Assembly: GCA_937958265.1 (NCBI GenBank)
Contig: CALGNX010000008.1
Span: forward strand, 1 to 64,000
Direction: 5' to 3'
DNA length: 64,000 nt
Source of the DNA: an uncultured Algibacter sp.
GTDB lineage: Bacteria; Bacteroidota; Bacteroidia; Flavobacteriales; Flavobacteriaceae
Shown: positions 20,465-57,558 of the stretch, piece by piece
Layout of the letters: each line of letters opens with the position of its first letter
Numbering within the stretch: the first letter of the stretch is position 1
Notes under the pieces: generated by a model
The model's input: the letters and a program-made list of their open reading frames with translations, nothing else
What the model was told of the DNA's origin: nothing
Database searches by the model: none
Translations under genes and position numbers: made by a program

Positions 20465-22090
20465 TTAAACTTTTAGCACTTTATGACGCTCTTTTTTGCC
20501 TTCTGCTATAATTTCAAAAAAGTAAACGCCACTTGTTAAATAAGCCAAATCCAAACTTAATTTACCATTTAGTATCTGGCCTGAGCTATTTAAAATTAAT
20601 TTACCTGCACTATTATAAATATTGTATGTTATAATATTTATATTCTCTATTCCAGAAATATTAATAACCTTGCTAAACGGGTTTGGATATATTAGCCAAT
20701 TTTTAATTTCATTTGGTGTTTGTGTTGCCAATGTTCCGCCAAAGCAAGCACTACTAACTTTAAATTCGGATTTTAATAGCTCGTCTAGTTTTAGGTTTGT
20801 AAAACTATTGTTTATGGTGTGATTAAAAAATGTAGCATCAATTATTGCATTATCTGCTCCTAAAAAATTTTGTAATAAAGTTGCAAAAGTTTGCCTGTAA
20901 TCGTGTTGTACGGTTTGTATTTGCCAGTTATTAGTATTGCTAGCCTCTGTTAAATCTGGGTTTGTTCCAGAAACACCACCTGCAATGGGCTTACCAAAGA
21001 CAAACATGGGTGCTATTTCGCCATGATCGGTGCCAAAACTTCCATTTTCTCTAGCCTTTCTACCAAATTCTGAAAAGGTTATTCCTACAACGTCATCGGC
21101 TATGTTTTGGTTATTAATATCGCTCATAAAAGCCTCGATAGCTCCAGAAAGCTCTGTTAACAATTCGTAATGTTTTCCTAACACCTCCCCTGCGCCTTGT
21201 ACCTGGCTGTTATGCGTATCGAACCCTGAAATACGAACCATATAAATTTTGGACCCCAAATCGCCACTAATTAAACGCGCCACCGTTTTTAATTGATTTG
21301 CCAAATCTGTGTCTGGGTAAGTAGCGTTATTTTGGCCGCTATTAAAAGCACTAGAAACAGATTCTGCATAGGTATTAGATACCATACCTGTACCATTTAT
21401 AAATGCCAATTGCTTACCATAATCTGAATTTGGAATATTTGTAGGTACTGCGCCACCTAAGCCATTTAAAACAGAATAAAAACCCGATGGGTCTTGCCCT
21501 GTTATGTTTAGGGATAAACCTACAGCTTCTTCTGTATGAAACCCTAAAGAGGTTTTGTTTGATCCAATTTCAACCGCTAAAGGAAAAGTTTCGTCAACTA
21601 AGCCAGCATAATACGACTCCATAAAGCGGCCTATCCAACCTGTATCTTCTCCATTTAACCTGCTATTACCGTCGTTTCCTGTTAAATACAAATCTGTGGA
21701 TTTAAAATGACTTTTATTTTGTGAAGGATACCCCACGGATTGTAAAATACGCAACCAACCTTTATCGTAAAGCGATTTAAAACTAGCAAGCCCCGGATTT
21801 AAACCTATTTGTTGGTTTTCTGGTAATGTATTATCTAACGTGATATATTTAGCACTAGAAACCTTAATGGTTGGCCTTAAATTACTATAAGTATCGTACT
21901 GATTTATTGGAATAATAGAATTTAATCCATCATTAGCACCTGCAAGATTTATTAACACCAATTTTCTATTTGAAACATCGGCACATGAGAGATAAGAGGT
22001 TAGTGTTTTTAAGGCAGCCTGTAATTCAAAAGGTGTTAAACTTAATACAGAAGCGGAGGCAGATAGTTTTAAAAAATTTCTTCTTTTCAT
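20465..22090 (-). CDS. DUF1501 secreted protein with Tat-like signal and T9SS sorting domain
   Basis: Predicted exported protein of 541 residues. The N-terminus has a twin-arginine-type signal (KRRNFLKLSASASVLSLTP). The body (about 40-440) is the DUF1501 domain, which is distantly related to the alkaline-phosphatase/sulfatase superfamily: VLINLAGANDGLNSIIPINQYD, MVRISGFDTHNSQ (about 281-293), FSEFGRKARENGSFGTDHGEIAPMFVFG (about 337-364). Residues about 463-541 form a C-terminal sorting domain (WLIYPNPFSKVINI ... SGVYFFEI..). The activity is not established. It is the second gene of an operon with the DUF1800 gene (95-nt gap), a very common pairing. Tat export combined with a T9SS signal is worth noting. 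Confidence 0.88.
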   Translation of the reverse strand: MKRRNFLKLSASASVLSLTPFELQAALKTLTSYLSCADVSNRKLVLINLAGANDGLNSIIPINQYDTYSNLRPTIKVSSAKYITLDNTLPENQQIGLNPGLASFKSLYDKGWLRILQSVGYPSQNKSHFKSTDLYLTGNDGNSRLNGEDTGWIGRFMESYYAGLVDETFPLAVEIGSNKTSLGFHTEEAVGLSLNITGQDPSGFYSVLNGLGGAVPTNIPNSDYGKQLAFINGTGMVSNTYAESVSSAFNSGQNNATYPDTDLANQLKTVARLISGDLGSKIYMVRISGFDTHNSQVQGAGEVLGKHYELLTELSGAIEAFMSDINNQNIADDVVGITFSEFGRKARENGSFGTDHGEIAPMFVFGKPIAGGVSGTNPDLTEASNTNNWQIQTVQHDYRQTFATLLQNFLGADNAIIDATFFNHTINNSFTNLKLDELLKSEFKVSSACFGGTLATQTPNEIKNWLIYPNPFSKVINISGIENINIITYNIYNSAGKLILNSSGQILNGKLSLDLAYLTSGVYFFEIIAEGKKERHKVLKV

Positions 22091-22185
22091 GTGTCTGTGC
22101 TTTTTATTTTATTAGAATATCGTGCAACATCGATTTTACAATTACATTTTAAAATTAAAATGCAGCGTGTGTGTTTATCATAATT

Positions 22186-23835
22186 TTACATTAATTGAAA
22201 TTCAGAAGCATTTACCATGGCTATAATTAGAGCGTCTAATCTTACTTTAACAAATACAGCATCGCCATCATTAACATATTGGCTCCATAAATCTGTCCAA
22301 TAATAGTCGGGGAAGCCTTCATCTACCAAAAACGTTTTAAAATAATTTACCCTATCTGTGTTTATCGCCTCCGGGTATAAAAAGCCTGTAATTTCTGTTA
22401 TTAAACGTACTGGGTTTTCCGGGTTACTAAGTTTGTTTTTAATAAAACCAACACTATCAAAATCAGTATATATTCTAGCATTTGGGTTAATGGTATTTCT
22501 TCCAATAATTAGGCTTTCTATAAGCTTATAACGCCCTATTAAGGTATTTGATGAAAACCAATTCCTATCGAAACCAGGTTCTTGATGGTATGCTGGATAC
22601 CCGGCTACAGAATCTGGATTAAACAATGCCATACCAGCGGCTTTGAAATAGGTGTTATGAATAAATTTTAGAAAAAAATTATTGTAATATCTCAACAAGT
22701 TACTGCTATTGGTTGGTTTAGGAAAAGACACATTAAACATGGAGCATACTTCTGATAGTTGTTGTAGCGGACTTTTTATTATAGCTCCAATAATATTATC
22801 GGTAGGGTTTGTATCATCGGCATCATAAAAATGCTCACTTGCTAGTAATGTGGTTACTGCAGGTAAAATTTCAAAATCATTATCGATTAAAATTTCAGAC
22901 AATGGTGTAATAATGTCAACCTCAACCGTATCGTTCCAATCGCTTTTAACAAAATATCTATATAATTTCCTAGCGTAAGCCTTTGCGGTTTCTTGTTGTG
23001 CAAAAACCATATCTACAAAATCATTTAACTCCCTAGTCATATCATCTTTACTGATGGCCCCTATTATAACGTGGTTTCCAAAAGCACTACTAAATGTTTT
23101 ATCTTCATTATTATGCTGAAAAAAATTAGAGTAACCTCGAGGTATTCCCGTATCGTTATCAATTTCAGAACGATCGTTTTTTGTTTTAAATCCGGAAAAA
23201 ATTTTGGCCGCTTGTTGAATATCCAACTCGGTATAGTTGGTATAATTACCGTCTCCAATTTGTTCTCCTTTTAAAATAGTAAAAAGTTCTAGGTATTCTC
23301 TAGCATAATTTTCATTTGGGTTATTCTTATTGTTTTGAGTATTGTTTAAGTAAGTTAGCATAGCGTTATCCAACGTAATTTTTTTTGCTAAAGTTTTAAT
23401 ATTTCCTAATGCATAAAAGTCTAATAAATTAATATGATCAAAAAAAATAGTAGCAGGACCGGTACCCAAATCTTTACCTACAGTAAAGGTTGTATGAAGA
23501 AAAAAAGATAATTTGTGCTTTAAGCTTATTTCATTCATGGCATTATACCACCACCATCCAGTTACAAAAGCACGTTTTCTATTATGACCGCCGAATGATT
23601 GTGGTAACTTTATTGATGATGTCCAATATCCATCTGGATTATCTGCAGGAAATGGATCATAAGGTTCAGGCAGGGTATTTACAAAGGCTACAGTTAACAT
23701 ATCGAGCGCATTGGCGGGCGTTATACCAACCAAAGCATCCAATTGTGACTTGGTATAATTAAAAGTAGCACGCCTTAATAAATGCTTAGCTTTTCTTAAA
23801 TCTAAAGTACCTTTAAATGAGTTGAGTGATGCCAT
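22186..23835 (-). CDS. DUF1800 family protein, partner of DUF1501
   Basis: This 549-residue protein belongs to DUF1800, which almost always sits next to DUF1501 in Bacteroidota and Planctomycetota; the function is unknown. Recognisable parts: KAKHLLRRATFNYTKSQLDAL (about 15-35), GWWWYNAMNEISLKHKLSFFLHTTFTV (about 93-119), NENYAREYLELFTI (about 175-188), QAAKIFSGFKT (about 207-217) and the C-terminal W..DLW..YVND. No N-terminal signal peptide is visible, in contrast to its partner. It is first in the two-gene minus-strand operon and divergent from the carH-crt operon. Confidence 0.87.
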   Translation of the reverse strand: MASLNSFKGTLDLRKAKHLLRRATFNYTKSQLDALVGITPANALDMLTVAFVNTLPEPYDPFPADNPDGYWTSSIKLPQSFGGHNRKRAFVTGWWWYNAMNEISLKHKLSFFLHTTFTVGKDLGTGPATIFFDHINLLDFYALGNIKTLAKKITLDNAMLTYLNNTQNNKNNPNENYAREYLELFTILKGEQIGDGNYTNYTELDIQQAAKIFSGFKTKNDRSEIDNDTGIPRGYSNFFQHNNEDKTFSSAFGNHVIIGAISKDDMTRELNDFVDMVFAQQETAKAYARKLYRYFVKSDWNDTVEVDIITPLSEILIDNDFEILPAVTTLLASEHFYDADDTNPTDNIIGAIIKSPLQQLSEVCSMFNVSFPKPTNSSNLLRYYNNFFLKFIHNTYFKAAGMALFNPDSVAGYPAYHQEPGFDRNWFSSNTLIGRYKLIESLIIGRNTINPNARIYTDFDSVGFIKNKLSNPENPVRLITEITGFLYPEAINTDRVNYFKTFLVDEGFPDYYWTDLWSQYVNDGDAVFVKVRLDALIIAMVNASEFQLM

Positions 23836-24080
23836 TACTTATTTTTTTATTAATATAAACAAAATTTAATTAACAGCACGATTATAAACAATTTTACCAA
23901 CTGATTTACAAATACTTAAAACTAAAACTAAGATAAATTAACTTCAAATTATTAGTCTTGACTTTACGGTTAGCACTAAAGATATATGGGTTAAGTTACT
24001 AGTTTATCACACACCAAAAAAAAACCTAAACGGAACAAGCCCTTTAAAGAAACATAATTGCTCAGTAGATAAAAAAAGCG

Positions 24081-24088
24081 TAATTTTG
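24081..24088 (+). promoter_or_regulatory. -7 element TAATTTTG of the CarH-like regulator gene
   Basis: TAATTTTG matches TAnnTTTG, 21 nt before the regulator ATG at 24110. No TGTAAA-type repeats like those at the crtI promoter were seen around it. Confidence 0.55.
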
Positions 24089-24109
24089 TTTAACTTAATT
24101 TAAATTTTA

Positions 24110-25009
24110 ATGAACAATATAAAGGTGGCTTTTAGTATCAAAGATTTAGAAAACCTTACTGGTATTAAAGCACATACCATCCGTATTTGGGAAAAACGTT
24201 ATAACCTATTAACACCAAACCGGTCTGATACAAATATTAGAAATTACAATTTAACTAGTTTTCAAAAATTATTAAACATTTCTTACTTAAACAAGAGCGG
24301 TTTAAAAATTTCCAAAATTGCTGAATTTAATGAAGATGAAATAGCCAATAAAGTAACCGAAATAGCTGCCAAAGAAAAAGTAGAAGATCATGCTATTAAT
24401 GCCCTTAAAGTGGCCATGCTTAATTTTGATCAGGTTTTGTTTTACACGACCTATAACGATTTATTAAAGCATAAATCTTTTAGCGAAATATTTTACTCGG
24501 TATTTATACCCATTCTAAATGATATAGGTTTATTGTGGCAAACTAACACCATTACACCAGCACATGAGCACTTTTTATCTGTTCATATTAAACAAAAAAT
24601 ACTTCTAAATACAGAACGTATTCAGCTATTAGAGCCTAAACCTGTATCCAAAACATTTGTACTTTTTTTACCTGATGATGAAATTCATGACATTGGCCTT
24701 CTATTTGTTAACTATCAATTACGTAGTAAGGGTTACCACACCATATTTTTAGGCGAAAGCATACCCATGGATAGCTTAACAGATCTGTTAACTTTTTTTG
24801 ATGACATAAGCTTTATTTCCTATTTTACGGTATACCCAAGAGAAAAAGACATACCAAGCTACCTTAAGAAATTTAACAAATTACTGCTTAAAAAGGATAC
24901 TACCGAATTGTTATTATTGGGCATGAAATTAAAAGATATAGACACTAAAAGTCTGCCCAAAAACATTTCTATATTTAGTTCAATTGAAAACCTTGTAAAA
25001 GACATGTAA
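24110..25009 (+). CDS. CarH-like MerR regulator with cobalamin-binding photoreceptor domain
   Basis: Transcription factor of 299 residues. Residues 6-75 are a MerR winged helix (HTIRIWEKRYNLLTPNR, TNIRNYN). Residues about 95-175 form the helical bundle and 180-290 the Rossmann-like B12 fold. The CarH/CarA adenosylcobalamin signature is complete: W143-x9-E153-H154 (LLWQTNTITPAHEHF) in the bundle, and E191-x-H193-x-x-G196 (EIHDIG), whose His is the expected lower cobalt ligand. In Thermus and Myxococcus such proteins repress carotenoid genes in the dark as AdoCbl-bound tetramers, and light destroys the complex. The gene lies directly before crtI-crtB-crtZ-crtY. The light role here is inference; the domain call is strong. 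Confidence 0.85.
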   Translation: MNNIKVAFSIKDLENLTGIKAHTIRIWEKRYNLLTPNRSDTNIRNYNLTSFQKLLNISYLNKSGLKISKIAEFNEDEIANKVTEIAAKEKVEDHAINALKVAMLNFDQVLFYTTYNDLLKHKSFSEIFYSVFIPILNDIGLLWQTNTITPAHEHFLSVHIKQKILLNTERIQLLEPKPVSKTFVLFLPDDEIHDIGLLFVNYQLRSKGYHTIFLGESIPMDSLTDLLTFFDDISFISYFTVYPREKDIPSYLKKFNKLLLKKDTTELLLLGMKLKDIDTKSLPKNISIFSSIENLVKDM

Positions 25010-25030
25010 AGGTTATATTTTTGTACAAAA
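24993..25030 (+). promoter_or_regulatory. crtI promoter with candidate CarH operator
   Basis: TTG at 24993-24995 and TATTTTTG at 25016-25023 are separated by 20 nt, a good Bacteroidota promoter. It lies across the end of the regulator gene and 28 nt before the crtI ATG. Between the two boxes are two direct repeats, TGTAAA at 24994-24999 and 25005-25010, exactly 11 bp apart. A perfect palindrome TTTTGTACAAAA covers 25019-25030, overlapping the -7 box. Read on the other strand each repeat is TnnACA, the core known from the 11-bp-spaced CarH operator of Thermus. The second repeat overlaps the regulator stop codon. Confidence 0.5.
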
Positions 25031-25051
25031 TCTAATAATTTCCCGTAAGTC

Positions 25052-26521
25052 ATGAGTGCAGTAATAAATATAATTGGTTCGGGATTTTCTTCCCTTTCAG
25101 CGTCATGCTATCTTGCAAAAGCAGGTTACGACGTTACAGTTTATGAAAAAAACGACACTGTAGGTGGTAGAGCAAGACAACTTAAAAAAGACGGTTTTAC
25201 TTTTGATATTGGTCCTAGCTGGTATTGGATGCCAGATATTTTCGAGAAATTTTTTAACGATTTTGGCAAAAAAACTTCAGACTATTACCACTTAGACAAA
25301 TTAGGTCCTGCTTATAAAATATTTTTTAAAGACGAAGTCATTACTATTGGCGACACGCTAGACAAAATATGTAAAGAATTTGACCGTATAGAACCTGGAA
25401 GCGCTATACCCCTTAAAAAATTTATAGAAAAAGCAGCTACCAACTACGATATTGCAATAAATAAAGTAGTTTTAAAGCCAGGACTTTCCCCGTTTGAGTT
25501 AATAACTCCGGAAACAGCCATGCGGGTCGATCAATTTTTTAAAACAATTAGTGGCGAGGTTAGAAAACAATTTAATAATCCAAAACTAATTTCAACGCTT
25601 GAATTTCCGGTACTCTTTTTAGGCGCAAAACCAAGCAATACTCCATCGTTTTATAGTTTTATGAATTATGCAGATTTTGGTTTGGGCACATGGCACCCTA
25701 AAGGCGGCATGTATGAAGTTATAAAGGCCATGGAAACCCTAGCTAAAAGTCTTGGTGTTAAAATTATTACACAAAGCGTGGTTAAAAAAATTAACGTTAG
25801 CGGAAAAACAGCGTCCTCAATAGAAATTAATGGCGAAAAAAAATCTTTCGATATTTTATTAAGTGGCGCAGACTACCACCATTCCGAAACGTTGTTGGAC
25901 GAAAAATATAGACAATATTCAGAAACTTATTGGTCTAAAAAAACATTCGCACCATCATCGCTACTATTTTATGTTGGCTTTAACAAAAAACTTAAAAACG
26001 TTGAGCACCATAATTTATTTTTTGACACGAGTTTTGAAACCCATGCAGAAGAAATTTATGATAACCCGAAATGGCCAAAAGACCCTCTATTTTACGCTAA
26101 TTTCCCATCGAAAACAGATGCCACAATGGCGCCAGAAAACGCTGAAACCGGTTTTTTCCTGATACCAATAGCACCAGGAATAGAAGATACAGAAGCCCTT
26201 AGAGCCCAGTACTTCGATATTATAATTTCTCGCTTTGAAAAATTAACAAAACAAGAGGTGAAAAATAGCATTTTGTTTAAAGACTCCTTTTGTGTTAAAG
26301 ATTTTATAAAAGATTATAACTCCTACAAAGGCAACGCATACGGTATGGCCAATACATTATCGCAAACCGCTTTTTTAAGACCTAAATTAAAAAGTAAAAA
26401 AGTAAATAATCTTTATTTTACAGGTCAGTTAACGGTTCCTGGCCCTGGTGTACCTCCAGCCCTAATTTCTGGAAAATTAGTAGCAGATTTAATAATTAAA
26501 CACCATAACACAGCCGTATGA
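25052..26521 (+). CDS. crtI: Phytoene desaturase
   Basis: FAD-dependent desaturase (489 aa) that converts 15-cis-phytoene to lycopene in four steps at the membrane. The N-terminus carries the dinucleotide fold (INIIGSGFSSLSASCYLAKAG, then VYEKNDTVGGRARQ). Residues 45-56 read FDIGPSWYWMPD, typical of CrtI. The C-terminal bacterial phytoene dehydrogenase signature is NNLYFTGQLTVPGPGVPPALISGKLVAD (about 452-479). Length is normal. Its ATG follows the regulator stop by 42 nt, with a promoter between them. Its last four bases overlap the crtB start (ATGA), so the two are translationally coupled. Confidence 0.95.
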   Translation: MSAVINIIGSGFSSLSASCYLAKAGYDVTVYEKNDTVGGRARQLKKDGFTFDIGPSWYWMPDIFEKFFNDFGKKTSDYYHLDKLGPAYKIFFKDEVITIGDTLDKICKEFDRIEPGSAIPLKKFIEKAATNYDIAINKVVLKPGLSPFELITPETAMRVDQFFKTISGEVRKQFNNPKLISTLEFPVLFLGAKPSNTPSFYSFMNYADFGLGTWHPKGGMYEVIKAMETLAKSLGVKIITQSVVKKINVSGKTASSIEINGEKKSFDILLSGADYHHSETLLDEKYRQYSETYWSKKTFAPSSLLFYVGFNKKLKNVEHHNLFFDTSFETHAEEIYDNPKWPKDPLFYANFPSKTDATMAPENAETGFFLIPIAPGIEDTEALRAQYFDIIISRFEKLTKQEVKNSILFKDSFCVKDFIKDYNSYKGNAYGMANTLSQTAFLRPKLKSKKVNNLYFTGQLTVPGPGVPPALISGKLVADLIIKHHNTAV

Positions 26522-27357
26522 AGTCTTTATTCGATACTGTTTCTTTTAACAGCAGTAAACTGGTAACAAAAACATATAGCACATCATTCTCGTTAGCTAC
26601 TAAAATGTTGTACGAGTCAATTCGTGGTGATATTTATAATATTTATGGTTTTGTAAGGTTTGCAGATGAAATAGTAGATTCCTTTCATACCTTTAATAAA
26701 GTTGAATTATTTAATCGCTTTACCGAAGATTTAGAATTGGCGCTTCAGAATAAAATAAGTCTTAACCCCATTTTAAACTCATTTCAACATACCTACCATA
26801 AATATAACATCGATAAAGATCTGGTAGATGCCTTTATGAGTAGCATGCGCTTAGATTTACATAAGACTACCTACTTAACAGAAGAAGAATACAAGGCCTA
26901 TATTTATGGCTCTGCAGATGTTGTTGGGCTAATGTGCCTTCAAGTATTTGTTAGCGGTAACCATACCAAATATAACGAACTTAAAGACACCGCCATGTCC
27001 CTGGGATCTGCTTTTCAAAAAGTTAACTTCTTAAGAGATTTAAAAGCAGATTTTGAAGGCTTAGATAGAACTTATTTTCCTAATACGGATTTAAAAAACT
27101 TAAATGAAACTTCAAAACAAGAGATAATTAACGACATTGAAGCCGATTTTGAAAAGGGTTTAAGCGGTATAAAACAATTACCTATCGAGGCTAAATTTGG
27201 AGTATTTATGGCTTACCGATATTATAGCCAGTTACTTAAAAAACTAAAAAAAACACCCGCATTAAAAATTAAAGATTCGAGGATACGTGTTTCCAATCCA
27301 AAAAAAATCGAACTTTTAATGCGCAGCTATGTAAAATATCAACTAAATCTAATTTAA
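26518..27357 (+). CDS. crtB: Phytoene synthase
   Basis: Squalene/phytoene synthase family enzyme (279 aa) that condenses two geranylgeranyl diphosphates into phytoene. Both aspartate-rich metal sites are visible: RFADEIVDSF (about 56-65, D-x-x-x-D) and NFLRDLKADFEGLDRTYFP (about 175-193). SFSLATKMLYESIRGDIYNIYGFVR near the N-terminus fits the family start. The start codon overlaps crtI by 4 nt. No GGPP synthase gene is in the cluster, so the precursor must come from elsewhere in the genome. Confidence 0.95.
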   Translation: MKSLFDTVSFNSSKLVTKTYSTSFSLATKMLYESIRGDIYNIYGFVRFADEIVDSFHTFNKVELFNRFTEDLELALQNKISLNPILNSFQHTYHKYNIDKDLVDAFMSSMRLDLHKTTYLTEEEYKAYIYGSADVVGLMCLQVFVSGNHTKYNELKDTAMSLGSAFQKVNFLRDLKADFEGLDRTYFPNTDLKNLNETSKQEIINDIEADFEKGLSGIKQLPIEAKFGVFMAYRYYSQLLKKLKKTPALKIKDSRIRVSNPKKIELLMRSYVKYQLNLI

Positions 27358-27369
27358 AACTTCTTCGTT

Positions 27370-27819
27370 ATGCAAACTTTATACGGGATACTTATTTTTT
27401 TAGCAACATATATCGCTATGGAATTTATGGCTTGGTTTACACACAAATATATTATGCACGGCTTTTTATGGAGCTTACATAAGGACCATCACCATAAAGA
27501 TCATGATAGTTGGTTTGAGCGTAACGACGCCTTTTTTATTTTTTATGCGATAGTTAGTATCGTATGTTTTATTTTATGGGAAACCACTTCGTTTTGGCAG
27601 GGTTTACCAATAGGTTTAGGTATTTTCGCCTATGGATTATCTTACTTTATAGTGCATGATATTTTTATACACCAACGTTTTAAGCTCTTTAGAAATGCTA
27701 ATAACTGGTATGCTAAAGGCGTAAGACGTGCACACAAAATGCACCATAAACACTTAGGCAAAGAGGATAGCGAATGTTTTGGTATGTTATTTGTACCTTT
27801 TAAATACTTTAAGAAATAG
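27370..27819 (+). CDS. crtZ: Beta-carotene 3-hydroxylase
   Basis: Membrane di-iron hydroxylase (149 aa) that adds 3-hydroxyl groups to beta-carotene, giving zeaxanthin through cryptoxanthin. The four histidine clusters are complete: HKYIMH (about 25-30), HKDHHH (about 37-42), HDIFIH (about 96-101) and HKMHHKH (about 121-127). Four hydrophobic helices are apparent. It lies 12 nt after crtB and 18 nt before crtY, inside the operon. No ketolase gene (crtW) is present, so zeaxanthin is the likely end product encoded here. Confidence 0.94.
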   Translation: MQTLYGILIFLATYIAMEFMAWFTHKYIMHGFLWSLHKDHHHKDHDSWFERNDAFFIFYAIVSIVCFILWETTSFWQGLPIGLGIFAYGLSYFIVHDIFIHQRFKLFRNANNWYAKGVRRAHKMHHKHLGKEDSECFGMLFVPFKYFKK

Positions 27820-27837
27820 TTATTTATACTACTTGAA

Positions 27838-28983
27838 ATGACAAAAAACACCCATTTCGATTATATTATTATTGGAAATGGTCTAGCTGGTTTACAACTT
27901 GCTCTTAAAATGAATTCCGATACTTTTTTTAGCGATAAGCGTATTGGACTTATTGATGCTTCTAAAAAAAACGAAAACGACAAAACCTGGAGTTTTTGGG
28001 AAAAAGGGCCATCTAAATGGGATAATATTTGTTATAAATCATGGCAAAAAGCCTCTGTAATAACATCTAGAAATAAAATTAACTTACAACTTAGCCCATA
28101 CGCCTATAAAACCATTAAATCTCTAGATTTTTATAACCATGCAAAACAAGCATTAGATAAAAATGATAATTTTAATTTTATAATTGAGCACGTAAATATT
28201 GTCGATGATAATACATTAGTAAGCATTACCACCAATAAAAATAAATATACCGCTAACCATGTTTTTGATAGCAGAATACCCAAAACATTTAAAAAAGAAT
28301 CGCTAAATAACATTTCTATTATTCAACATTTTAAAGGATGGGTTATTAAAACTGACGCTAACAGTTTTGATGAGAAAACCATAACCATGATGGATTATAG
28401 ATTAAAAGACGGTTCGCAAACCTCATTTACTTACGTATTACCCTATTCTGAAACTGAGGCGCTAGTGGAGTTCACCTACTTTACATCGGCAGTGGTTAAC
28501 GAGGCAGTTTATGATGATTACCTTAAGAATTACATAAAGACTTTTTTAAAAATAGAACGCTATACTATTCTTGAAACTGAAAAAGGCCAAATACCAATGA
28601 CGAGTTTTACTTTTGAAAAATTCAACACTAAAAACGTTACTAAAATAGGAACAGGTGGCGGTTGGGTAAAAGCCTCTACAGGCTATTCGTTTAAAAATAC
28701 CGAGAAAAAAATAACCCGCATTATAAAAAACATAAAAGCACATAAACTGCCATCGCAAAATTTATTTAAAACACGATTTAAGTTTTACGATAAAGTATTC
28801 CTTAAAGTTTTAAAAGATGAAAACGAAAAAGGCGAATGGATTTTTGAGCAATTTTACAACAAAAACTCAATTCAAACCATGTTTCGTTTTTTAGATGAAG
28901 AATCTACTATTTTTGAAGAGCTAAAAATTATGGGATCACTTTTTTCTTGGAGCTTTATAAAAGCTTTTTTTAAAACATTATAA
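27838..28983 (+). CDS. crtY: Lycopene beta-cyclase, CrtY type
   Basis: FAD-containing cyclase (381 aa) that closes beta-rings at both ends of lycopene. The N-terminal motif is DYIIIGNGLAGLQLALKM (about 7-24). The conserved central YVLPYSETEALVEFTYF (about 199-215) contains the acidic residues needed for cyclisation, and GTGGGWVKASTGYSF (about 270-284) is typical of CrtY. It ends the crt operon and overlaps the convergent thioredoxin-like gene by 6 nt, so no terminator separates them. Confidence 0.93.
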   Translation: MTKNTHFDYIIIGNGLAGLQLALKMNSDTFFSDKRIGLIDASKKNENDKTWSFWEKGPSKWDNICYKSWQKASVITSRNKINLQLSPYAYKTIKSLDFYNHAKQALDKNDNFNFIIEHVNIVDDNTLVSITTNKNKYTANHVFDSRIPKTFKKESLNNISIIQHFKGWVIKTDANSFDEKTITMMDYRLKDGSQTSFTYVLPYSETEALVEFTYFTSAVVNEAVYDDYLKNYIKTFLKIERYTILETEKGQIPMTSFTFEKFNTKNVTKIGTGGGWVKASTGYSFKNTEKKITRIIKNIKAHKLPSQNLFKTRFKFYDKVFLKVLKDENEKGEWIFEQFYNKNSIQTMFRFLDEESTIFEELKIMGSLFSWSFIKAFFKTL

Positions 28984-29605: not shown

Positions 29606-30490
29606 CTATCTAGTTACTACACCAGAAGGTAAAGATTCTAAATTTTGTGAAAAATCGTGTGTTGCTGGCGCTGTTTCTTGTCCAGCTTTTCCAACTAAAG
29701 GCTTCATTACGTAAGGCGCAGGAGAATCATCTGGCACAGGCTCTACAGAAATAACAACTGTTTTTCCTCTAACATCTAAAGGAAACATTTCTCCCTCTGG
29801 TGCGTTTAAAAAGAAATCTTCTCCAGGAACAGGAGGTCCCATTTTAAACTCTTCACCACTAAACATATTAAAATCATCACGACCATCAAAATCAGTGAAA
29901 ACACCTGTTGAAATTGGTCCTGTTTCTCCAACAACCCAACCTTCATAAGCCCAACCTGGAGCAAGTGTAGGTAACACAAAATTTGAGGTTGGAGGCGCTC
30001 CAGGAGTACCAAACCACACACCGTATTCATCGTTTCCGTTATTTCCTGAACCAGGAACCTCATCGGTTGGTGTTCTCATAAAGAACGCGCCTGCTGCATT
30101 TGAAAAATCTCCAACAACTCCGCCTGTGGTTAATGCAGCTGTATCACCAGAAAAATCACCTACTAATACTTTGGTTGCAGCAGGTGCAGGATCAGGATCG
30201 TCTGCTGGTTCAATAGATAGTACAAAACGTGTTGCTTGACTTAACATATCGGCATTAACTGAAAATGTTTGAGGAAAATCTACAGATGTAAAAGTTCCTG
30301 TTGAAACTGGTGCTCCATCAACAATAATCCATCCTTCATAAACGTACTCGGCTCCTAAAGGACTTAAAGTTCTTCCTTCATTTAAATCCAAGGTAAATTT
30401 ACTATTTACCGATTTATCGTCATCATCGCTACTACAAGATGTAGCCATAGCTCCTGCGGCAATTACTGCCAAAAACATTTGTTTAATCAT
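29606..30490 (-). CDS. Lipoprotein with two RskA C-terminal-like repeats
   Basis: Predicted lipoprotein of 294 residues. The signal peptide ends in a lipobox (MATSC at about 15-19), followed by a run of acidic residues (SSDDDDK). Two homologous halves follow. Each has a YEGW motif (about 50-53 and 183-186), a following ST(G)xF segment (VDGAPVSTGTF; TGPISTGVF) and a later V(L)SIEP/VISVEP strand followed by PAP. This pattern recalls the C-terminal domain of anti-sigma-K factors, but no sigma factor or anti-sigma N-terminus is present. The function is unknown. The acidic tether suggests surface or periplasmic display. Confidence 0.6.
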   Translation of the reverse strand: MIKQMFLAVIAAGAMATSCSSDDDDKSVNSKFTLDLNEGRTLSPLGAEYVYEGWIIVDGAPVSTGTFTSVDFPQTFSVNADMLSQATRFVLSIEPADDPDPAPAATKVLVGDFSGDTAALTTGGVVGDFSNAAGAFFMRTPTDEVPGSGNNGNDEYGVWFGTPGAPPTSNFVLPTLAPGWAYEGWVVGETGPISTGVFTDFDGRDDFNMFSGEEFKMGPPVPGEDFFLNAPEGEMFPLDVRGKTVVISVEPVPDDSPAPYVMKPLVGKAGQETAPATHDFSQNLESLPSGVVTR

Positions 30491-56394: not shown

Positions 56395-57558
56395 TTACTT
56401 ACTTGCAAATAATTTTACATCTTGCTCACTTATTTCCTCACCACCTAAAATAATTAAGCGCTCCACAACGTTTCTAAGTTCTCTAATATTACCTGTCCAA
56501 TCGTATTCCTGCAATAGTTTAATAGCTTTATCTGAAAATAACTTTTTAGTACTCCCCTGGTCATTTGCAATTTTTGTACAAAAATGTTTTACTAATAGTG
56601 GAATATCTTCTCGCCTATCGTTTAATGCTGGTACTTTAATAAGTATAACTGCTAGTCTGTGATATAAATCTTCTCGAAATCTGCCCGCTTCAATTTCCTC
56701 TTTTAAGTTTTTATTTGTTGCAGCCACAACACGAACATCTACTTTAATATCTTTATCTGTGCCTACACGTTGTACTTTGCTTTCCTGTAAAGCTCGTAAA
56801 ACTTTGGCTTGTGCAGATAGACTCATATCTCCTATTTCATCTAAAAATATGGTACCACCGTTGGCCGCTTCAAACTTTCCTGCACGGTCTTTATTGGCAC
56901 TTGTAAAAGCCCCTTTTACATGCCCAAACAACTCACTCTCTATCAACTCACTAGGTATTGCAGCACAATTCACTTCTACTAAATTTCCTTTAGCACGTGC
57001 ACTTTTTTCGTGTAACCAATGGGCTACTAATTCTTTTCCTGTTCCATTGGGTCCGGTAACTAATACGCGAGCATCTGTTGCCGCCACTTTATCAATAATA
57101 TCTTTTATTTGAGAAATAGCATCGCTTGTGCCTACCATCTCATACTTCTTACTTACCTTTCGCTTTAAAATTTTGTTTTCTACAACCAACTCTTTTCTAT
57201 CTAAAGCATTACGTACAGTGTTTAATAGCCTATTTAAATCTGGTGGTTTTGATATGTAATCGAATGCGCCTAAACGCATGGTGTTAACAGCAGTATCTAA
57301 ATCACCATGTCCCGAAATCATGATTATTGGTATTTCTGGTTTTATTTTTTTTAAAGCCTCTAAAACCTCAACACCATCCATTTTCGGCATTTTAATATCA
57401 CAGAGTATTAAATCGAAGTCCTCATTTTTTATTTTTTCAATGCCCAATAATCCATCTTCGGCTTGATCTACTTTATAAGCATCATTTTCTTCTGAAAGAA
57501 TTTTAACAAGCACACGTCTTATTGCCGCTTCGTCTTCTATTACTAGTATTTTTGACAT
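56395..57558 (-). CDS. Sigma-54-type response regulator lacking a DNA-binding domain
   Basis: Response regulator of 387 residues. The receiver domain (1-120) has VIEDEA, the phosphorylated Asp in LILCDIKMPKMDG (about 49-61) and the Lys in YISKPPDL. The AAA+ domain (about 140-365) has Walker A GPNGTGKE, the sigma-54 loop region FGHVKGAFTSANKDRAGKFEAANGG, Walker B GTIFLDEIGDM, and VVAATNK..EEIEAGRFREDLYHRL. The loop is GAFTSA rather than GAFTGA. The protein ends right after ISEQDVKLFASK, so the Fis-type helix-turn-helix of NtrC is absent. It starts 2 nt after the upstream DUF6268 gene. Confidence 0.9.
   Translation of the reverse strand: MSKILVIEDEAAIRRVLVKILSEENDAYKVDQAEDGLLGIEKIKNEDFDLILCDIKMPKMDGVEVLEALKKIKPEIPIIMISGHGDLDTAVNTMRLGAFDYISKPPDLNRLLNTVRNALDRKELVVENKILKRKVSKKYEMVGTSDAISQIKDIIDKVAATDARVLVTGPNGTGKELVAHWLHEKSARAKGNLVEVNCAAIPSELIESELFGHVKGAFTSANKDRAGKFEAANGGTIFLDEIGDMSLSAQAKVLRALQESKVQRVGTDKDIKVDVRVVAATNKNLKEEIEAGRFREDLYHRLAVILIKVPALNDRREDIPLLVKHFCTKIANDQGSTKKLFSDKAIKLLQEYDWTGNIRELRNVVERLIILGGEEISEQDVKLFASK

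Follow-up and report, generated by a model that had tools for sequence, protein, structure and literature searches.

A CarH-like regulator at the carotenoid operon of an uncultured Algibacter and its predicted light regulon in the Flavobacteriaceae

Background

Does the MerR-family regulator that precedes the carotenoid genes crtI, crtB, crtZ and crtY in an uncultured Algibacter sp. sense light by means of vitamin B12, and does its control end with these genes? The locus lies on contig CALGNX010000008.1 of the assembly GCA_937958265.1 (2.89 Mb in 31 contigs); the first 64,000 nucleotides of this contig make up the analysed stretch (hereafter the window); the regulator, a protein of 299 aa, is encoded by carH at positions 24110–25009 of the forward strand. 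A sequence-only reading of the window had credited it with the full CarH signature and proposed that light, acting through adenosylcobalamin (AdoCbl), controls an operon for zeaxanthin. Sunlit surface water commonly contains flavobacteria, many of which possess rhodopsins. The literature searched (most subscription papers lie outside it) names no described flavobacterial light regulator and no flavobacterial CarH, CarH operator or CarH regulon; individual papers are cited below from extracts of their texts. Here we argue that the regulator is a variant of the CarH-like photoreceptors, an AdoCbl-dependent repressor that acts in the dark on a light regulon common to the family, a reading to which we assign a probability of about 0.7. 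The binding of AdoCbl and the control by light are well supported as inference by the conservation of the motifs, the fold, the co-occurrence with an adenosyltransferase and a shared promoter element.

Results and discussion

The regulator and its cobalamin-binding residues

Pfam searches identified in the regulator the domains MerR_1 and B12-binding_2, the latter corresponding to the helical-bundle half of the B12 domain, and among solved structures the Thermus CarH/LitR entries come nearest in sequence (E-values 4.9e-13 and 5.9e-13). The predicted model of the protein matches the cobalamin-domain fold of CarH. It differs from the class II LitR proteins, which comprise the helical bundle alone, with the Rossmann B12 part absent. 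Its recognition helix, R25-I-W27-E28-K29-R30-Y31, is of the RxWERRY type (PMC9304148), and R25, W27, E28, R30 and Y31 are invariant in 39 sequences.

The Wx9EH motif is formed by W143 (Thermus W131; encoded together with Q144 at 24536–24541) and E153-H154 (24566–24571), and the lower axial ligand half of the second motif, E/DxHx2G, by E191-I-H193-D-I-G196 (24680–24697), all on the forward strand. In the alignment their counterparts in Thermus CarH are a W, an E and two H, numbered W131, E141, H142 and H177 (PMC11796333). Conservation was counted over 104 non-duplicate carH loci, left after removal of six duplicates from 110; about 57 of the 161 regulator-bearing genomes described below, including 11 in which the homologue is weak, lie outside this set. 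W143, E153, E191 and H193 occur in 104 of 104 loci, G196 in 101 and H154 in 99, and only 10 columns within residues 91–299 are invariant, these four included. Retention in all or nearly all loci argues that the motif is not due to chance, and the assignment of W143, E153, H154, E191, H193 and G196 made earlier is borne out. In the SignatureFinder definition of a light-responsive cobalamin domain, GxxW (G140, W143), EH and GxxxP (G215, P219) are present; GxxH is missing, so that the set of four is incomplete (residue 190 is D in the window and G in 7 of the 104 loci).

A conserved element over the carH promoter

The putative carH promoter (24058–24088, forward strand) consists of TTG (24058–24060), which we take to be the -33 element, a spacer of 20 nt and the -7 box TAATTTTG (24081–24088). 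The consensus TAnnTTTG represents the flavobacterial sigma-A -7 box, located at -12 to -5 (PMC9723704). An operator-like unit, TTTTGTTTAAC (24084–24094, forward strand), overlaps this box and matches the unit found in the two-unit sites of relatives; it may be bound by the regulator. The combined pattern TAnnTTTGTTWA occurs within 60 nt upstream of carH in 74 of the 104 loci (0.55 in shuffled sequences); in 63 of these the first base of the box stands exactly 29 nt upstream of the carH start codon. The pattern is kept in the window (24081–24094). Between carH and crtI the same pattern was found in 51 of the 104 loci (0.6 in shuffles), and many relatives possess two units before crtI, at a spacing of 21 bp in 49 of 55 cases. 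Each unit contains TnnACA, and the two form an inverted pair 21 bp apart; TnnACA is the core of CarH half-sites, which in the known CarH operators are arranged as tandem 11-bp repeats, nnnnTnnACAn (PMC9304148). Among 102 distinct pairs the columns not forced by the search pattern are also conserved, with A in 99% right after the second unit and TA in 78% and 74% at the -7 box. A scan with a sigma-70 model gave matches no more frequent than in shuffles. In the carH promoter, a further unit placed 21 bp downstream obtained the top score among the offsets other than 0; we do not claim it, because the start codon at a fixed distance explains part of that score.

The operator pair across the family

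Among 199 genomes of the Flavobacteriaceae, 161 encode the regulator (threshold E 1e-15). A strict pair pattern, TGTTTARY-N13-TGTTARAC, gave 185 matches in 108 of the 199 genomes, whereas the reversed pattern, used as a control, gave 21. The pair is present in 104 of the 161 regulator genomes vs 4 of the 38 that lack the regulator (p 8e-10); with crtI sites excluded, it remains in 66 of 104 sampled regulator genomes vs 4 of 38 (p 1e-8). In eleven genomes (G007, G014, G025, G028, G032, G038, G040, G066, G098, G168 and G184) the regulator is represented by no more than a weaker homologue (E 1e-38 to 6e-48), probably of another subfamily, and two of these genomes contain the pair.

The surroundings of 74 sites at 70 loci were analysed, 40 of the loci being picked by hand from a listed part of the sites (sites not at crtI, most of them with a box like TAnnTTTG) and 30 (L118–L147) automatically, so that the resulting gene tally is not that of a random sample; the counts per genome given above are complete. 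No open reading frame (ORF) lies within 200 bp at 16 sites, 6 precede crtI, 11 have an ORF 61–200 bp away and 41 an ORF within 60 bp downstream. These 41 ORFs encode fasciclin proteins (21), Porph_ging proteins (8; we take these to be GLPGLI), TetR_C_23 proteins (5), fatty-acid desaturases (2), a bacterial rhodopsin, a PTPS protein, a flavin reductase and two copies of a 142-aa protein, for which a scan of one copy gave no Pfam match; one further pair is found 112 bp upstream of a photolyase gene. Since the unit is shared with photolyase, rhodopsin, desaturase, fasciclin and GLPGLI genes, the CarH-like control probably reaches past the crt operon and would constitute a family light regulon, beyond a pigment switch. 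The literature searched yielded no report that fasciclin or TIGR03643 genes are induced by light in flavobacteria.

In the window's own genome the pair occurs at four places with at most one mismatch. At C3:119960 it stands ahead of a TetR_C_23 gene followed by a UbiB-like gene, and at C3:128743, with one mismatch on one strand and two on the strand of the gene, it precedes the gene for the 142-aa protein and a TIGR03643 gene; next to these lies a photolyase/cryptochrome-like gene scoring below the NCBIfam cut-offs. No gene of this kind adjoins the sites C1:28209 and C10:170338. The former (C1:28209–28238 of G000; locus L122) is the only exact pair of this genome; it is palindromic, lies more than 200 bp from any gene start and is possibly a remnant.

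Supply of cobalamin and co-occurrence with the adenosyltransferase

The window's genome encodes the adenosyltransferase PF01923 and contains one cobalamin riboswitch, located between genes for a periplasmic binding protein and a TonB receptor; an ORF on the opposite strand resembles cobU. CbiC, the one synthesis gene searched for, was not found. Cobalamin is probably imported and then adenosylated by the cell. The supposition that nothing else in this genome uses AdoCbl was abandoned, because matches to PF01642 and to class II ribonucleotide reductase (RNR) point to other uses. The only PF02310 match in this genome is an 890-aa ORF (C25); PF01642 matches twice, the better match (6.6e-187) being weaker than those of most relatives, and the mutase may be split or truncated by a contig end.

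Among the 199 genomes, PF01923 was found in 184, PF01642 in 178 and class II RNR above the cut-off in 70. The 21 genomes without PF01642 include none of the 70 class II RNR positives (for one of them, G192, the PF01642 status is taken from its absence among the positives). In these 21 the adenosyltransferase accompanies the regulator in 11 of 12 genomes vs 1 of 9 without the regulator (Fisher p 0.0004), the exceptions being G064 (regulator without transferase) and G180 (transferase without regulator); at completeness of at least 85% the values are 10 of 11 vs 1 of 6 (p 0.005). An order-wide extension of this test was dropped: 18 of the 20 order-level genomes without PF01642 that were listed (there are 45 more) belong to a single family, f15, with genomes of 0.3–0.6 Mb that we take to be those of endosymbionts.

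According to the mechanism that we propose, imported cobalamin would be converted to AdoCbl by the adenosyltransferase of the cell, and the AdoCbl-bound regulator would repress in the dark by sitting over the -7 box. Cleavage of the Co-C bond by light would release the protein from the DNA and permit the transcription of carH and the carotenoid genes. As Gln144 stands in the column of Thermus His132, the light state of the regulator would be water- or hydroxide-ligated and not bis-His.

Evidence against and alternative explanations

A number of observations weigh against this reading. PF02310, the Rossmann B12 domain, has no Pfam match in the regulator; the Rossmann part is present in the predicted model, the alignment runs to residue 299 and H193 is kept. 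The classic motif continues as x41-SxT/V-x22-27-GG (PMC8156234, PMC9304148), and this remainder is missing from the regulator: position 239 is occupied by F in 91 of the 104 loci, and GG after residue 255 occurs in a single one. The residue following the Trp, which corresponds to Thermus His132 (the column was assigned via the Thermus wild-type and H132A chains), is Gln in 99 loci, including the window (Gln144), His in 3 and Leu in 2, and Thermus H132A is still mostly tetrameric in the light (PMC10442372). No compensating His at 144 was seen in the loci that have lost H152 or H154. To speak of a full CarH signature, as was done earlier, is therefore too strong: the W/E/H residues and E/DxHx2G stand, and the PF02310 match, the GG and the His132 equivalent are missing. 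CarH homologues are spread over many bacterial taxa and are said to be defined by both motifs together (PMC8156234). Because part of the defining motif is missing, we term the protein CarH-like and do not assign it to CarH proper; it scores 69 bits with the NCBIfam CarH model, far below the cut-off of 400.

The window operon itself lacks the two-unit pair before crtI. In its place is a weak candidate promoter (24993–25030, forward strand), with TTG, 20 nt and TATTTTTG (25016–25023) over the palindrome TTTTGTACAAAA (25019–25030). The palindrome is not conserved as an operator (4 of 104 loci have TGTACA close to the junction of carH and crtI) and has two other exact matches in the genome, one inside the photolyase-like gene and the other at window position 56572, apparently coding; we keep it as a weak candidate. 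As the pair is missing, transcription of crtI probably depends on the carH promoter together with this diverged site. At up to two mismatches the pair shows no excess in the window's genome (56 matches vs 51 for the control), so that the support from this genome comes down to the two sites also present in relatives.

The dependence on B12 also meets objections. Four of the 199 genomes, G008 and G064 (99% complete) and G048 and G062 (82–84%), have the regulator with its motifs intact and no PF01923, and PF02572 is absent from these four and from all 21 genomes without PF01642. Some surveyed genomes are incomplete, and they are not phylogenetically independent, so that common ancestry makes the p values optimistic. 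CarA of Myxococcus xanthus binds B12 and functions without it (PMC8156234), so that binding alone is no proof of dependence on B12. Could the regulator have reached a similar end state, keeping the fold and perhaps cobalamin, repressing without cofactor and receiving the light signal via another protein or singlet oxygen? The loss of SxT/V and GG, the replacement of His132 and the four genomes without the transferase would agree with it, and CarA provides the precedent. However, CarA lacks the Trp of Wx9EH (PMC9304148), which is invariant in the flavobacterial proteins, and the adenosyltransferase is retained with the regulator in the 11 of 12 genomes described above; we find this explanation improbable. 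Still more doubtful is a cofactor gauge, that is, a cobalamin-binding protein which reports the supply of B12 or AdoCbl and responds to light little or not at all. The presence of salvage genes without CbiC implies that the supply may vary, and Gln occupies the position of the light-state ligand, but in relatives the element is common to photolyase, rhodopsin and carotenoid genes. Moreover, CtMerR, with Arg in the His132 column, passes from tetramer to monomer in the light, and SasPcob, with Gln, is light-responsive (PMC11796333), its end state being water- or hydroxide-ligated (PMC10979010). These cases suggest that Gln indicates a different light state and is no argument against light sensing.

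It is also conceivable, if unlikely, that the two-unit element belongs to a different light-response regulator or sigma factor and that the CarH-like protein governs its own carotenoid operon only, which is partly compatible with a CarH-like photoreceptor. The contact between protein and element is a prediction, the inverted pair at 21 bp is unlike the tandem CarH repeats, and a shared habitat could produce the co-occurrence. Against this, the unit precedes carH and crtI themselves and contains the TnnACA core, and without the regulator the pair falls near background (5 matches in the 4 of 38 genomes vs 3 for the control). The second unit bears an ordinary sigma-A -7 box, which makes a special sigma factor unnecessary. 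We therefore prefer the CarH-like dark repressor, and of the earlier proposal the light- and B12-controlled carotenoid operon is upheld in part, as an inference from motifs, fold, co-occurrence and element, with a partial signature and a control that is probably wider than the operon.

Comparison with known systems

The closest known system is CarH of Thermus thermophilus (class I LitR; PDB 5C8D, 5C8E and 5C8F), from which the regulator differs by the absence of SxT/V-GG and by the Gln for His132; its operator would be the inverted pair instead of tandem repeats, and its regulon is probably wider. SasPcob (a photocobilin, 8J2W in the PDB) possesses a bilin domain, and the extract mentions no DNA-binding domain for this protein; CtMerR from Chloracidobacterium (8JBS) has a diverged DNA-binding domain (both PMC11796333). 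M. xanthus CarA shares with the regulator the MerR and B12-domain architecture and a carotenoid target (PMC8156234). In flavobacteria, zeaxanthin from a carotenoid cluster is light-induced in Chryseobacterium lacus, whose authors merely speculate on a CarA/LitR-like gene (PMC7064467), and in the crt cluster of Nonlabens spongiae a MerR gene is listed first (PMC11855829); the extracts of these two accounts contain no B12 test. The LitR regulons of Pseudomonas resemble the predicted one in comprising light-inducible genes, including photolyase and folE, but their class II LitR has the helical bundle only and is thought not to bind B12 (PMC9758184).

The crt operon and neighbouring genes

The four crt genes follow carH on the same strand, at the positions given by the sequence-only reading and in agreement with the Pfam and NCBIfam families: crtI, phytoene desaturase (25052–26521; crtI_fam; NF058655, 717 bits, cut-off 640; TIGR02734, 390 bits), crtB, phytoene synthase (26518–27357; SQS_PSY, 164 bits; adjoining crtI in relatives), crtZ, carotene hydroxylase (27370–27819; FA_hydroxylase, 45 bits, no NCBIfam match, assigned also by position and conservation) and crtY, lycopene cyclase (27838–28983; Lycopene_cycl, 168 bits). 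The expected product is zeaxanthin. NCBIfam names the window CrtI, like three relatives checked, bifunctional phytoene desaturase/3,4-desaturase; CrtID as a peculiarity of the window protein was rejected, because the three relatives score alike.

The operon appears to be a mosaic. For carH (79–82% identity, its nearest named relatives being Algibacter records), crtB (86–89%) and crtZ (87–89%) Algibacter is the closest, unlike crtI, which shows 84.9% identity to L026, 84.5% to Psychroserpens jangbogonensis (L220) and only 69–70% to Algibacter. It looks as if crtI had been replaced, the crtI operator pair being lost along with the replacement. At four loci of relatives (L077, L089, L093 and L101) crtB directly follows carH, and crtI was not found in the stretch fetched. 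Two genes downstream of crtY the window encodes, on the reverse strand, a lipoprotein-like gene with an anti-sigma-K domain (29606–30490; RskA_C, 50.8 bits), and upstream of carH, on the opposite strand, a DUF1501 gene with a Por_Secre_tail sorting domain (20465–23835), adjoining a DUF1800 gene.

Conclusions

In its broadest form, our proposal describes a master light switch found throughout the Flavobacteriaceae, a CarH-like protein of the Gln type without GG, which with AdoCbl in the dark would repress carotenoid, rhodopsin, photolyase, desaturase, fasciclin and GLPGLI genes via the operator TGTTTAA(C/T)-N13-TGTTAAAC over the sigma-A -7 box, and would render the light programme of cobalamin importers B12-dependent; we regard the odds of this full version as even. 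With a sensor, an operator and a set of genes as candidates, light regulation in flavobacteria becomes directly testable. A natural Gln-type relative of CarH would show how far the bis-His light state is required, and, if the proposal is true, a B12-importing bacterium that senses light via B12 would tie its defence against light to a vitamin from other organisms.
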